Position numbers and translations under genes: made by a program
Shown: piece by piece, positions 16,627 through 32,004 of the stretch
Position numbering within the stretch: position 1 is the first letter of the stretch
Layout of the letters: every line of letters begins with the position of its first letter
DNA from: Gemmatimonadota bacterium
Lineage (GTDB): Bacteria > Gemmatimonadota > Gemmatimonadetes > Gemmatimonadales > Gemmatimonadaceae
Assembly: GCA_028287305.1 (NCBI GenBank)
Contig: JAQBPX010000038.1
Span: 62,001 to 126,000 of the forward strand
Direction of reading: 5' to 3'
DNA length: 64,000 nucleotides
The notes under the pieces: model-generated
Seen by the model: only the letters and a program-made list of their open reading frames with translations
Told to the model about the DNA's origin: nothing
Database searches by the model: none

Positions 16627-17300
16627 TGCGCGGCGTCGCGATCGGTGTGGCGTTGATTGCCGCGAGCGCATGCAGCCGCGGCGCTACGGCGCAGCAGCCC
16701 GCGCCGGTTCCGGCGGATGCATCGCAGCCGTCGGTCACGGACACGATCGGGCTGGTGCCGCCGGGGTTCGGGTCGCTGCGACAGGACGATATTGCGCTCC
16801 GCCTTGCGATCGAGAACGTGCAGGTGAAGCTGGTGCCGCTCGACGAGCGCGTGATCCGCACGCTGTCGCCGGACTCGTATCGGGCATTGAAGGACCTGGT
16901 CACGAGCCGCAACGAGCAGCTCTCGCGCCTCGTGCAGCGACATGGGCTGCGCGAGCGGCACCTGTTCTATGTGACGTTCTACGGCCTGGCGCCGGACGCG
17001 CGCTTCTCGCCCCTGGACCTCACGCTCTCGGCGTCCGGCCGCGAGTTCCGCCCGCTCGAGGTGCTGCCGCTCTCGGCGCGCTTCGGCGAGCAGCGCCTGC
17101 AGCCGCGCGAGACGCAGTCCGCCATCTACCTGTTCGAGGACGGGCTGGATGAGGCGCAGCCCTTCGTGGTTCGGATGGGGACCGACTCGAATTCCGAGTG
17201 GGCGAACACGCTGCGGCTGCTGGATCGCGAGCGGAGCCTCATTCGCAGCAGGGCCAGCCAGAAGCGCGTAGTACGTACCCCTGCGCCGCCTGCGCGTTGA
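16626..17300 (+). CDS. Hypothetical exported protein (possible lipoprotein)
   Basis: A 224-residue protein that I do not recognise. It starts with a signal-like segment (GVAIGVALIAASACSRG), and Cys16 follows a weak lipobox (ASAC), so it may be lipid-anchored; otherwise cleavage after TAQ is possible. The rest is a compact mixed domain with many charged residues, no repeats and no further membrane segment. The ATG overlaps the engB stop, so it is the last gene of the lon-engB unit. Confidence 0.75.
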   Translation: MRGVAIGVALIAASACSRGATAQQPAPVPADASQPSVTDTIGLVPPGFGSLRQDDIALRLAIENVQVKLVPLDERVIRTLSPDSYRALKDLVTSRNEQLSRLVQRHGLRERHLFYVTFYGLAPDARFSPLDLTLSASGREFRPLEVLPLSARFGEQRLQPRETQSAIYLFEDGLDEAQPFVVRMGTDSNSEWANTLRLLDRERSLIRSRASQKRVVRTPAPPAR

Positions 17301-26554: not shown

Positions 26555-27424
26555 ATGCCCTACCTACCGCTTCGTTCCCTTCCCGACCGCCCGACCACCA
26601 CGCTCGCCACGGCGTGGCTGGAGGAGCTCGGCGCCCAACTGCTGGATTCGGCCACCGACCGCAACGTGCTCGTGCGGCGCACGCTCACGGAGCTGCTATT
26701 TCCCGAGTATGCGGCGAACTGGGAAACCGCCGTGGTGGACACGAAGCTCACGCGCGCCACGCGGATGTCGCTCGCGACGCTCGACCCGCGCAACATCACG
26801 CTCGAGCCGGAATACTACGGCGAGTGTGACGACGCGAAGTTCCAGCCGATCAAGCCGTTGCTCTGGCTCTGGTACTCATTCGACCGGACGCACCTCGCGG
26901 GCCAGAACGTCTGGCTGGGAGTGGAGCTGCGACGGCTGCTGGCGGGGCACATCTTCAAGCGGGTGGGAAGCAACTTCAAGTGCTTCCAGCACGTGGAATT
27001 TTCGTTCGGCTACAACATGGAGGTCGGCGACGACGTGGTGGTCCACCGCCACGTGCTGCTCGACGACCGCGGCGGCATCGTGATGGGCAATCGCGTGTCG
27101 GTGAGCGACTACGCGAACATCTATTCGCACACGCACTCGATCGTGGAACAGCGCGACGTGACCAACGCGGTCACGCGACTGGATGACGATGTGCGCATCA
27201 CGTACCACGCGACGGTGCTCGCCGGCGTGCACGTGCACGAGAACGGCATGGTGGGCGCGAACGCGGTGGCGACGAAGGACGTCGACGCCTACCACGTGAA
27301 CGTGGGCATCCCGGCAAAGTCAGTGCGGGTGAAGCCGAATGCGCCGGAGCTCAAGGATGCGCACGTGCTGAAGACGGCGCGTGATCGCGGCGTGACGCCT
27401 CCCGGGAGTGCAGGAGAGGGTTAG
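26555..27424 (+). CDS. Left-handed beta-helix acyltransferase (LbH, acetyltransferase-like)
   Basis: A 289-residue protein whose second half has the hexapeptide-type pattern: FGYNMEVGDDVVVHRHVLLDD, GNRVSVSDYANIYSHTHSIVE, ITYHATVLAGVHVHENGMVGANAVATKDV and the closing VNVGIPAKSVRVKP. The central His of SHTHS is the likely catalytic base. The first 120 residues are helical and unassigned. The family transfers acetyl or other acyl groups to sugars or amines. Its stop codon overlaps that of the convergent GspE-Nudix gene: TAG on one strand and TAA on the other share two bases. Confidence 0.85.
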   Translation: MPYLPLRSLPDRPTTTLATAWLEELGAQLLDSATDRNVLVRRTLTELLFPEYAANWETAVVDTKLTRATRMSLATLDPRNITLEPEYYGECDDAKFQPIKPLLWLWYSFDRTHLAGQNVWLGVELRRLLAGHIFKRVGSNFKCFQHVEFSFGYNMEVGDDVVVHRHVLLDDRGGIVMGNRVSVSDYANIYSHTHSIVEQRDVTNAVTRLDDDVRITYHATVLAGVHVHENGMVGANAVATKDVDAYHVNVGIPAKSVRVKPNAPELKDAHVLKTARDRGVTPPGSAGEG

Positions 27425-29634
27425 CGCACTCGCAGCACGTCTTCCACCGCGCCGGCATCTCCCGTGGATAGCAGCATGCGGACCTGCTGGAGCGCCAGCT
27501 TCTCACTCGGCCAGACGAATCGCTCGGCCGCGTCGTCCGGCGACAGCCAGGCGTACGCGACATGCTCGCCATCGAGTTGCACGGCTGCATCCTCGTTCAC
27601 GAACACCGCGAACACGCACGCCAGGGTGACTACGCTCGCGCGGTGCATGTAGAACGGGTTCACGGTGATGCTGTAGAGGCGGTCCGACTCTAGCCCGGAC
27701 TCCTCGCGCACCTCGCGAATCGCGGCGTCCTCAGGGCGCTCTCCGGGCTCGATGCGGCCGTGCACCGTTTCCCATGAGCCCGGACAGCGTGTGTCGTTGC
27801 CGCGCTGCAGCGCCAGCACCAGCCATCCTTCGGGGCGCGGACGGATCACGAACACGTCCACCGTCGCAATTTCGATCTTCACTTCACTCACGTCATTCAC
27901 CGCCGGGCCGAGTCGGTCGCGTCGCTGCACCGCGGCGGGTGTCGCCGCCACCGGGAGATAGCCGGTCGCGGGCATGCTCGCCACCCTCCCCAACTCCGCG
28001 ATGGAGGTGTCGCCGCGCGCGACATGCAGCATCCCGGATTCCCAGAGCGGGCGCATCCCACTCTCGCGCCCCACGCGCGCCACCTGCTCGGCGCTCGCCC
28101 CGCTGGCGACGGCCTGCTCGAACGCCGGCGAGCCGATCAGGACTTCTACCACGGCGAGGCGGCCGCGATATCCATCCCCCTCGCACGCCACGCAGCTCTC
28201 GCTCACGCGACGCGCGTCGGCGGTGCCGCGACAGGTGGGGCAGAGGCGGCGCACCAGTCGCTGCGCGATGATCCCCTTCACGGACGCGGCAATCTTGTAG
28301 CCGGCGACGCCGATGTCGCTGAGCCGCGCGACCGCACTCGCGGCGTCGTTGGTGTGGAGGGTGGACAACACCAGGTGACCCGTGAGCGAGGCCTGGATGG
28401 CGATCTCGGCGGTCTCGCGATCACGAATCTCGCCGATGAGGAGGACGTCCGGGTCCTGGCGCATGATGGAGCGAAGGGCCGATGCGAAGGTGAGCCCTGC
28501 TCGCTCGTGCACCTGGACCTGGACGATGCCGGGAATCCGGTATTCGATCGGATCCTCGACAGTGACGATGTTCAGCCCGCGCGCCTGGATGCGGCGCAGC
28601 GCGGCGTAGAGAGTCGTGGTCTTGCCACTGCCGGTTGGCCCCGTGACGAGGATGAGCCCCTCGCGCGCGTCGAGCAGCTGCTCGATTCGCGCCTGCTCGT
28701 CGGGGTTGAAGCCGATGGCGTCCAGGTTGAGCACCGTGGAGCGCCCGTCGAGCACGCGCACGACCACCTTCTCGCCCAGCGCCGCGGGGAGGGTGGAGAC
28801 GCGCAGGTCCACGGCGACGCCATTCACCGCGATGCGGGCCCGTCCGTCGTGCGGACGCAGGCGGTCGGCGATGTCGAGTCCCGAAAGGATCTTGATGCGT
28901 GATACCAGCGCCGGCGCGAGCTCGCGCGGCAGGACACGCACCTGCTTCATGACACCGTCGATGCGATGCCGCACCGCGAGCCCCTTCTCCTCCGGCTCGA
29001 TGTGGATGTCGCTCGCATGCGCGGCGATGCCGTCGCCCAGGAGCTGGTCCACCAGCCGGATCACGAGGGCAGTGGAATCCGGCGACTCCACGGGGGGCGC
29101 GCTATCCATTCCGGAGGCGAGATGCTGGACCTCCACGGTGCCGACTCCGGGGTTGCTCGAGCCGAACTCGCCGCGATAGCACTCGTCGAGCCGGCTGGCG
29201 ATCGCGCGCGGGCTCGCCACCGAAAAGCGCACCGCGCGACCAGTCGCGAAGGCGACGCTGCGCTCGCACTCCACGTCGAGCGGGTTTGCGGTGGCGAGCT
29301 CGATGATGCCATCGGTGACGCTGAGGGGCAGCACGCGAAAGCGCCGCGCCCAGCGCTCGGGGAGCAGGTCCATGGCGCGGGGGCTCACGGCGCTGGTGTC
29401 GGCCGCGGGAACGCCAAGGTGCGCGGCGACCGCGTGCACCAGCGTGGACTCGTCGAGGATCTTCTCGGCCACCACCGATTCCCAGAGGCTCTCGTGCTCG
29501 TGCTGCCGCAGTCGCTCGAGTTGCGGCGTGGAAAGCAGCGTCTGCAGGATGGGCAGCAGCCAGCTGTCGCGCGGGCGCGCCGGCGGCGCGCTGGGGCGAA
29601 GGATGGGCTGGGTCTGGCGCTTGAGGCGGAGCAT
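27421..29634 (-). CDS. GspE/PilB-type secretion ATPase fused to a C-terminal Nudix hydrolase
   Basis: A 737-residue protein in one uninterrupted frame. Residues 40-150 form the MshEN-like N-terminal domain; 185-555 are a T2SSE ATPase with Walker A TGPTGSGKTT (331-340), the Asp box VEDPIEY, Walker B DPDVLLIGEIRDRETA, the His box TGHLVLSTLHTND, and a zinc site with Cys465, Cys468, Cys481 and Cys484. The ATPase ends as usual at DTSIAELGRVASM. After a linker of about 30 residues comes a complete Nudix domain (585-737) with a perfect box from Gly626 to Leu648, including GRIEPGE and REVREESGL. The first part would power pilus or type II secretion assembly; the second would hydrolyse a nucleoside diphosphate-linked substrate. 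No pilus genes adjoin. No stop or frameshift separates the parts, though a GTG near the linker could start a separate Nudix protein. Confidence 0.9.
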   Translation of the reverse strand: MLRLKRQTQPILRPSAPPARPRDSWLLPILQTLLSTPQLERLRQHEHESLWESVVAEKILDESTLVHAVAAHLGVPAADTSAVSPRAMDLLPERWARRFRVLPLSVTDGIIELATANPLDVECERSVAFATGRAVRFSVASPRAIASRLDECYRGEFGSSNPGVGTVEVQHLASGMDSAPPVESPDSTALVIRLVDQLLGDGIAAHASDIHIEPEEKGLAVRHRIDGVMKQVRVLPRELAPALVSRIKILSGLDIADRLRPHDGRARIAVNGVAVDLRVSTLPAALGEKVVVRVLDGRSTVLNLDAIGFNPDEQARIEQLLDAREGLILVTGPTGSGKTTTLYAALRRIQARGLNIVTVEDPIEYRIPGIVQVQVHERAGLTFASALRSIMRQDPDVLLIGEIRDRETAEIAIQASLTGHLVLSTLHTNDAASAVARLSDIGVAGYKIAASVKGIIAQRLVRRLCPTCRGTADARRVSESCVACEGDGYRGRLAVVEVLIGSPAFEQAVASGASAEQVARVGRESGMRPLWESGMLHVARGDTSIAELGRVASMPATGYLPVAATPAAVQRRDRLGPAVNDVSEVKIEIATVDVFVIRPRPEGWLVLALQRGNDTRCPGSWETVHGRIEPGERPEDAAIREVREESGLESDRLYSITVNPFYMHRASVVTLACVFAVFVNEDAAVQLDGEHVAYAWLSPDDAAERFVWPSEKLALQQVRMLLSTGDAGAVEDVLRVR

Positions 29635-29883: not shown

Positions 29884-32004
29884 CTACAGCAGCGTCCAGA
29901 ACTCCCGCGCGACATCGAGGGAGATCATCCAGCGGCCTCCCCGCAACCCGCGCGCGACATCCAGCCTGAGAAAGTCGAACGGCGAGTACACAGCCATTCC
30001 CACGGACGGATACGCCCCCGACTCCCGCGCCGAATATCCAGACCGAACCAATCGCGACCCGCCGAGCACCGCAACGTGTGCATACGGCGCCACCTTCACG
30101 CGTGACGGGCTCCGTCCAAACCGCCCCAGTGAGAACGAGGGAAAGGGCACCGACGACTGCCACTCCACTCGCTGCGTGAGGAGCAACGTGCCCGAGAGCT
30201 CGTGGTATTCGTAGCCCGGAGCGGAGGTCGCGCCACCCGCGTACGCGAGATCGTACGACGGAACACCGTTCTCGTCGGCACCTGCGCGCACCAGGGTCCC
30301 TGTCGTGCGGAGCACCAGCGACTGGTCGCCGAACGGGCGCGATCCCGAGGCCGAACCGGAGAGACGCAGCATGGGATGAAGGATCGACCCGGACCCGATG
30401 TTGTCGATGCCGGGCATCCGCACGTCCGCGTCGAGGTTGGCCAGCATGGCACGACCCGATTCCTGCCACTGCCACCTCCCACTGTCGAACTGCCGCTCCA
30501 GGAACGCCTGTGCGCCGAGCAGCGACCGATTCCCTCCGTTCAGCGTCTCGCCGAAGCTGCGCGTCGCCGACACCGCACGCACCGCCACCGGCCGTCCCCG
30601 CTCCGCGAAGAGCCCCACTCCCCACACTCCCCGGTACAGGGGCATGGTCGCGCCGAGCTCGAGCCGCTCCACCCTGTAAGGATCCGACCAGTCGCTCCCG
30701 AACTCCTGCGCCGCGAAGCTGTTGATCAGCCGCGAGCGCTCTACCTCATCGCCGGCCTCGCCCAGCCCCGACACCCCCGCCACGCTCAACTCGTATCGCG
30801 CGCGCTGGAGCGCCAGCCGCGATTCCCACTTCGCGCGCTTGTCGTCCAGGCCGTAGCGTCCGCGCACGGCCAGGGTGATCCCCGCACCTGGCCGCAGCAG
30901 CGTGCCCGCCCCCAGCGACAGCCCCTCGGCGCGATTGAACTGCACGAAGTCCGACACGTTCCGCGCGCTCAGCCGCGCACCCTGCGGGCGCTCGAGGGCC
31001 TTGGCCCGCACCAGCGCTCGCGCTTCCTCCTGCACGGCGCGGACATCGTCGTTCGTCGCGAGCTTCACGTCACCCGGCAGTGAGTCGAGCACGCGCAGCG
31101 ACTCCCACACGTGCGCCTTCTGCTCGGCCGCCGGCGCCGCCACGATCTCGTCGCCGCCGAATCCCTGCGCCACGTAGCCGCGATTCAGGGTGTAGTCGCC
31201 GATCTCCCAGCGCCCGCGAATGATGCCGGTCACGGGCCAGTCCATGAACGTCCCTTCACGCTTGATCTCGATCTCCTGCCGCCGGGGCAGCCAGAATCGC
31301 GCGCCCACCAGGCCGTTCTCGAGCACGATCGACAGCTCCTGCAGCTGCTTGTCCAGGAAGGCCGCATGCGTGAACGAGAACGCCATGCGCACCACCTGTG
31401 CGCTCCCCTGCTCCACGTACAGGGCACCGACGACGCGCGCGTCGCGGTCGTTCTTCGGCCGCACCTTGACCTCGTACACCTCGATCGCGCGCCCCGGCAG
31501 CTGGATGCGCAGCGAGTCCGCGATGTGGAAGTCATAGAGCTGCCGGCCGATCACCGACAACGGATGCGGGACGTCGGCGACCTCGTCGCCATCACCCAGC
31601 CGGATGATGTCCGGGAAGTTGTTCTGGACGATCCCCAGGTGGTCGCGATGGTACGCGATGTCCGTGGGGAGCAGCAGCGTGTCGCGTCGCCCGATGATGC
31701 GCTGCTTGCTCAGGTTCGGCGCCTTCCAGTACACTTCCAGCGCGAGCTCGTCCGCCTTCAGGATTTTGGGTGGCAGTCGAAATCGCTCGCCGACCTGCGC
31801 GAGGAATGTCAGGTAGCCGTGCGCGGTCGCCTGGTAGTCCACCAGCCCGGTGTCGGCCAGCTGGCGGGCGCGGCGCGCCACGGCGGAATCCACCAGGTCA
31901 CGAGTGCGCGGGTCATTCCAGAGCTGCGCGCTCGCGGCGCGACAGGGCAGCATCACACCGAGCAGACAGGCTGCGGCGCCGAGCGCCGCGAGGATACGCC
32001 GCAT
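29884..32004 (-). CDS. Large exported protein, predicted outer-membrane beta-barrel
   Basis: A 706-residue protein I cannot name. It has a signal peptide (RRILAALGAAACLLGVMLPC, cut near AASAQ), then a soluble domain to about residue 300 with beta-sandwich features (VRMAFSFTHAAFLDKQL), and a C-terminal half of alternating strands with Gly/Arg/Asp turns, such as GLSLGAGTLLRPGAGITLAVRGRYGLDDKRAKWESR, given here only as its start. It ends ISLDVAREFWTLL. The layout resembles proteins with an N-terminal domain followed by a surface-antigen-like barrel. The ATG at 32004 is preferred because the signal peptide follows directly; the frame is open further upstream but would overlap trpE. It diverges from trpE. 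Confidence 0.75.
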   Translation of the reverse strand: MRRILAALGAAACLLGVMLPCRAASAQLWNDPRTRDLVDSAVARRARQLADTGLVDYQATAHGYLTFLAQVGERFRLPPKILKADELALEVYWKAPNLSKQRIIGRRDTLLLPTDIAYHRDHLGIVQNNFPDIIRLGDGDEVADVPHPLSVIGRQLYDFHIADSLRIQLPGRAIEVYEVKVRPKNDRDARVVGALYVEQGSAQVVRMAFSFTHAAFLDKQLQELSIVLENGLVGARFWLPRRQEIEIKREGTFMDWPVTGIIRGRWEIGDYTLNRGYVAQGFGGDEIVAAPAAEQKAHVWESLRVLDSLPGDVKLATNDDVRAVQEEARALVRAKALERPQGARLSARNVSDFVQFNRAEGLSLGAGTLLRPGAGITLAVRGRYGLDDKRAKWESRLALQRARYELSVAGVSGLGEAGDEVERSRLINSFAAQEFGSDWSDPYRVERLELGATMPLYRGVWGVGLFAERGRPVAVRAVSATRSFGETLNGGNRSLLGAQAFLERQFDSGRWQWQESGRAMLANLDADVRMPGIDNIGSGSILHPMLRLSGSASGSRPFGDQSLVLRTTGTLVRAGADENGVPSYDLAYAGGATSAPGYEYHELSGTLLLTQRVEWQSSVPFPSFSLGRFGRSPSRVKVAPYAHVAVLGGSRLVRSGYSARESGAYPSVGMAVYSPFDFLRLDVARGLRGGRWMISLDVAREFWTLL

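Follow-up and report, generated by a model that had tools for sequence, protein, structure and literature searches.

In a 64,000-nucleotide stretch of DNA from a Gemmatimonadota bacterium, hereafter the window, a single gene encodes a PilB/GspE-type motor ATPase joined in frame to a Nudix hydrolase. The merger is genuine and is conserved in at least nine genera of one family of soil bacteria. We think it probable that its product is a conserved bifunctional protein, in which a putative Ap4A-hydrolase-like enzyme is tethered to an accessory motor ATPase. A search of the open-access literature found no paper on a PilB/GspE–Nudix protein.

Architecture and locus of the fused gene

The fused frame opens with ATG at 29634, closes with TAA at 27423–27421 and contains 737 codons without a stop. 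Its Pfam domains run from MshEN through T2SSE to NUDIX, the last at residues 591–710 (Table 1), which bears out the proposal of a first-pass annotation that ATPase and Nudix share one uninterrupted frame. The zinc cysteines (465, 468, 481 and 484) and a perfect Nudix box (626–648) lie exactly where that annotation put them. Its Walker A motif (GPTGSGKTTT) is present but sits at 332–341 rather than 331–340, and its linker of some 30 residues measures about 28 (557–584).

AlphaFold models the N-terminal domain and ATPase with confidence, and likewise the Nudix domain (pLDDT 95.5 when modelled alone), with linker residues 558–582 disordered. Because overall pTM is low (0.49), the placement of the Nudix domain relative to the ATPase is not fixed in the model. 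The predicted picture is of two well-folded units joined by a disordered tether.

The fusion lies in a conserved block ordered tig-like, clpP-like, clpX-like, lon-like, GTPase, acetyltransferase-like, fusion, DUF5686-like, trpE-like and FHA–GAF–cyclase; the first five we take to be such genes from our own reading of their translations. The fusion and the convergent acetyltransferase-like gene share bases of their stop codons at 27421–27424, and several relatives show a similar overlap.

Table 1. Features of the fusion locus in the window (aa, residues of the fused protein).
Feature	Position	Strand	Basis
Fused gene, PilB/GspE-type ATPase and Nudix hydrolase, 737 aa	27421..29634	-	Single open frame; fusion in 37 genomes of 9 genera
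MshEN-like domain, aa 75-156	29167..29412	-	Pfam PF05157, 1.4e-16
T2SSE motor ATPase domain, aa 187-548	27991..29076	-	Pfam PF00437, 1.9e-126
Four-Cys zinc motif CPTC...CVAC, aa 465-484	28183..28242	-	Motif position check
Linker, aa 557-584, site of the lost REC domain	27883..27966	-	AlphaFold pLDDT <50 for 558-582; in-frame length variation among relatives
Candidate internal Nudix start, GTG, aa 582 (others 27898-27900, 27880-27882)	27889..27891	-	Start-column conservation; mRNA-structure dip
Nudix hydrolase domain, aa 585-737, conserved C-terminal tail VEDVLRVR	27424..27882	-	Pfam NUDIX 1.9e-18; model pLDDT 95.5; single subfamily copy in genome
Nudix box GRIEPGERPEDAAIREVREESGL, aa 626-648	27691..27759	-	Perfect GX5EX7REUXEEXGU, 34/34 fusions
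Convergent acetyltransferase-like gene, syntenic marker	26555..27424	+	4-base overlap with the stop of the fusion
DUF5686-like gene upstream of the fusion, syntenic marker	29884..31956	-	Weak Pfam match; synteny with relatives

The fusion is conserved across genera

We searched the whole 737-residue protein against 179 genomes of the same family and obtained end-to-end matches at roughly 50–64% identity. The fusion is present in 37 genomes, the window genome included, spread over nine genera (g1, g2, g5, g7, g10, g13, g14, g20 and g30). ORF analysis of the loci confirmed 34 fused genes, and three more (G091, G185 and G194) were added from open-frame lengths and positions; motif and alignment counts below cover the 34 aligned fusions. 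The named genomes are mostly metagenome-assembled. One genus, g13, has both fused and unfused members, and no fused locus was found among the loci examined from two sister families (f2 and f3).

A recent accident, in which a lost stop codon or an error of sequencing joined two frames that selection does not maintain, is scarcely credible. In its favour are unfused relatives where just one in-frame stop parts the two genes (L100, L103 and L111), a state that the first-pass annotation had named as a sign of accident; such loci do exist, yet the fusion is nonetheless conserved in distant genera, which rules out both accident and error. The same architecture stands in 37 separately assembled genomes, so it is not chance, and the 36 end-to-end fusions besides that of the window dispose of that annotation's concern about an isolated event or an error in the linker. 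The T2SSE-then-Nudix order it had looked to relatives for recurs in one frame in these genomes, with the Nudix box kept in all aligned fusions. Linkers vary from about 22 to 62 residues through insertions and deletions; because so many lengths all keep the frame without a stop, read-through looks selected.

Several loci are interrupted or rearranged. G195 carries an in-frame TAG within the ATPase. Inserts interrupt the fusion locus of G013, where ~7 kb breaks it (L066, 5441–14507) and the ATPase 3' half (residues 363–553) recurs within that stretch in two additional partial copies; the last partial ATPase copy remains in frame with Nudix (395 aa). In G012 a segment made up of part of the ATPase 3' end and Nudix is duplicated at 97–98% identity, about 5–6 kb apart (L072, 3544–4076 and 8502–9992).

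Origin from a gene pair

Elsewhere in the order, most genomes have at this syntenic site an ATPase orthologue whose C-terminal domain is a response-regulator receiver (REC). These GspE–REC proteins are about 50–58% identical to the fusion; unlike it, they end in the receiver, and Nudix is encoded by a separate, usually adjacent gene. That gene lies downstream on the same strand in 30 of 37 REC-type loci, mostly as the next gene and sometimes across gaps of up to about 7 kb, and its product is 42–57% identical to the fused Nudix domain; the wider set of REC-carrying orthologues gives 42–60%. In G028, ~7.2 kb separates gspE-REC from its Nudix gene (L071, 11451–18675); by eye from translations, ORFs in this gap encode a SusC/TonB-type receptor-like protein (1047 aa) and a SusD-like protein (459 aa).

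REC is ancestral, since the paralogues that served as outgroup also carry it. REC types form one group in the ATPase tree, on which REC presence changes twice. Unfused genes without detectable REC occur in g13, g14, g15, g16 and g19, and in the three loci named above a single in-frame stop separates the frames. Because orthologues carry REC and because REC-less, stop-separated forms exist, the fusion arose by loss of REC together with the stop. Comparison thus shows an origin from a gspE-REC gene and a separate Nudix gene. The first-pass suggestion that two genes were joined by stop loss was right about the pair, which relatives retain, usually side by side, but incomplete about the event, for the whole REC domain has gone and not the stop alone.

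The fusion may have arisen once, with later splits, or several times: fused and unfused states change five times on the ATPase tree and seven times on the Nudix tree. The tails of g13 proteins look collinear with a receiver over their last 45 columns, yet hhalign gives a probability of 1%, and we do not claim a degenerate receiver there. An FxLxDD linker motif occurs in 25 of 37 REC types, and a few linkers of g14 have it too; as a pattern picked after seeing them, it is only suggestive of a fossil of the pre-REC linker.

The ATPase half

The ATPase belongs to the T2SSE motor superfamily: the Pfam T2SSE match covers nearly the full model, and Walker A and B, Asp and His boxes are all present. 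Walker A, Asp box, Walker B and His box (TGH) are each kept in 34/34 aligned fusions, and the four-Cys motif is missing from those of g2 and g7. With PilB/GspE assembly ATPases (PF00437 with MshEN) the fusion shares this full core and usually the four-Cys motif, and among solved structures PilF/PilB and GspE come closest to it. It differs from them in its C-terminal Nudix, in the absence of a platform protein gene nearby, in a c-di-GMP motif that was not found, and in scoring below both NCBIfam equivalog cut-offs, with 510.6 bits against 630.25 for GspE of type II secretion (TIGR02533) and 488.6 against 675.65 for PilB of type IVa pili (TIGR02538). The MshEN c-di-GMP receptor is defined by two tandem RLGxx...LxxxLxxQ motifs (PMC5013675), which binding of c-di-GMP requires; a motif scan found no RLG motif in the N-terminus of the window protein and few across the family, which does not qualify this domain as such a receptor.

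The window genome has only two platform (T2SSF) loci, one a PilC next to pilT and the other a Tad-like pair, and on this ground we reject a type II system of the fusion's own. PilB-like genes lie at two contig ends of the same genome. Its contig C8 (L210, 3104–12161) holds two tandem paralogous ATPase–REC genes, the REC of the first matched only in part, together with a CHASE3 hybrid histidine kinase, an Hpt protein and a single REC protein. Because paralogues cluster with these components, the arrangement suggests that REC-bearing members of the family are phosphorelay outputs; the fused lineage would then have lost its phosphorelay input.

The Nudix half

The C-terminal domain is a Nudix hydrolase superfamily member (Pfam NUDIX 67.2 bits against a cut-off of 21.1), and with its GX5EX7REUXEEXGU box in 34/34 fusions it is catalytically intact by motif and presumably active. 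Its nearest solved proteins are Ap4A/Ap6A hydrolases (profile 2e-13, Foldseek about 6e-10, ~24% identity); NudB and MutT types follow closely, and many Nudix families are nearly equal in score. The best reading is of an Ap4A-hydrolase-like domain, a candidate substrate class drawn from fold and profile resemblance. NUDT2 and Ndx1, the Ap4A/Ap6A hydrolases, and NudB share its fold and box and give the best profile and Foldseek matches, but the fused Nudix, ~24% identical, has its own conserved C-terminal EDVLRV tail and falls below the NudB cut-off (dihydroneopterin triphosphate diphosphatase, PRK09438; 46.7 bits against an equivalog cut-off of 103). A folate link through PabB was considered and rejected: the neighbouring chorismate enzyme matches TrpE best (510.8 bits, just below the cut-off of 517.7), and the Nudix lies far below that of NudB.

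This Nudix enzyme is nearly universal in the family. Its subfamily profile is found in 160 of 179 family genomes and 99 of the 105 of high quality, nearly always in one copy and rarely in two; in each fused genome the profile search found one copy, the fused one. A taxonomic scan, in which each of 84,980 species was represented by one genome, kept 80 loci, all named as Gemmatimonadota members except two, whose labels are Kuenenia and 'bacterium'. These two have the same synteny as the Gemmatimonadota loci and may be mislabelled or unclassified bins.

The gene also persists where the ATPase does not. In genus g22, Nudix is present in 29 of 30 genomes, and we found no ATPase orthologue in the 30, the best matches (E about 1e-87 to 1e-102) being at paralogue level. 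In Gemmatimonas-like records, Nudix stands alone between a trpE-like gene and a homologue of window positions 16755–17300, and the ATPase, DUF5686-like and acetyltransferase-like genes are missing from the site. Because it is kept in many genera that lack the ATPase, Nudix has a role of its own and is not primarily an ATPase regulator; and since fused genomes showed no second copy of this near-universal family enzyme, the fused domain must still do its own reaction.

These observations weigh against a regulatory reading, which we consider unlikely, that Nudix replaced the receiver as input and sets the motor's state by binding or cleaving a nucleotide signal such as Ap4A. The first-pass annotation had likewise proposed an ATPase tuned by a nucleotide-derived molecule, which would be a conjecture at this stage. 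The domain does occupy the exact place of REC in the orthologues, the fusion is conserved with its frame kept, and the paralogous gspE-REC genes of the phosphorelay cluster make C-terminal regulation plausible for this ATPase family. But catalytic residues are intact, the tether is disordered in the AlphaFold model with no fixed domain placement, and a separate Nudix protein coexists with REC in relatives, besides the many genera that keep Nudix without the ATPase. An allosteric link from one half to the other is conceivable. Since the Nudix gene also lives apart from the ATPase, a Nudix that tunes the motor is not the default reading.

A candidate internal start

Fused genes often retain a start codon where the standalone Nudix begins. 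The start column holds ATG in 20 and GTG in 6 of 34 fusions, never CTG, ATC or GTC, and separate Nudix genes, by our own count, have ATG or GTG there in 29 of 42 cases. No other linker column shows such a pattern, and neighbouring codons are not conserved, in a count whose column anchor miscounts the window gene. Folding energies indicate that the mRNA is weakly structured over about nine codons on either side of the Nudix start (z about +1), and gene starts in the window show a similar dip. A separate start near 27890–27900, as the first-pass annotation had envisaged, is in keeping with the start codons kept there in most fusions and with the window gene's GTGs beginning at 27900, 27891 and 27882; the exact column, however, is GAA in the window gene, with a GTG two codons upstream.

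Because start codons are kept and mRNA structure is locally weak, free Nudix may also be made, and dual translation of the fused gene is a plausible candidate. A stronger version, in which the gene yields a read-through fusion plus free Nudix and the tether itself has little function, we hold to be a serious possibility short of an even chance. Conservation of the ancestral start in 26 of 34 fusions amid unconserved linker codons speaks for it, as does the structural dip. The window gene, though, has lost the start codon at the exact column, Shine–Dalgarno enrichment at the internal start is not clear (the window's gene starts show none either), and part of the dip may reflect the higher AT content of the beta strand just downstream. 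With the conserved starts and low mRNA structure, free Nudix might even be the main working product.

A model for the fusion

The reading we favour, a putative hydrolase tethered to an accessory motor, can be laid out as a sequence of events. In Gemmatimonadaceae, judging by the names of matching records, the ancestral arrangement was a gene pair, gspE-REC and, behind it, a standalone Nudix gene. When the receiver domain and stop were lost, the downstream Nudix gene was brought into the ATPase frame. The N-terminal two thirds remain an intact PilB/GspE-type motor ATPase, presumably a hexamer that uses shared type IV filament parts with phosphorylation control through REC gone. The C-terminal third is a flexibly tethered, probably active Nudix, nearest in fold to diadenosine polyphosphate hydrolases. 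This near-universal enzyme would keep its own reaction, now carried on a motor, and the retained internal start may release free Nudix as well. It is rather improbable that, beyond dual tethered and free products, the tethered enzyme links turnover of a nucleotide such as Ap4A to the motor in place of the phosphorelay input.

The fusion exemplifies how a regulated motor ATPase exchanges one C-terminal domain for another when its gene merges with the neighbouring one; relatives still preserve the ancestral state of this swap as well as partial ones. A core enzyme has become one domain of a motor that is itself dispensable, and the fusion permits a clear test of functional coupling against mere tethering.
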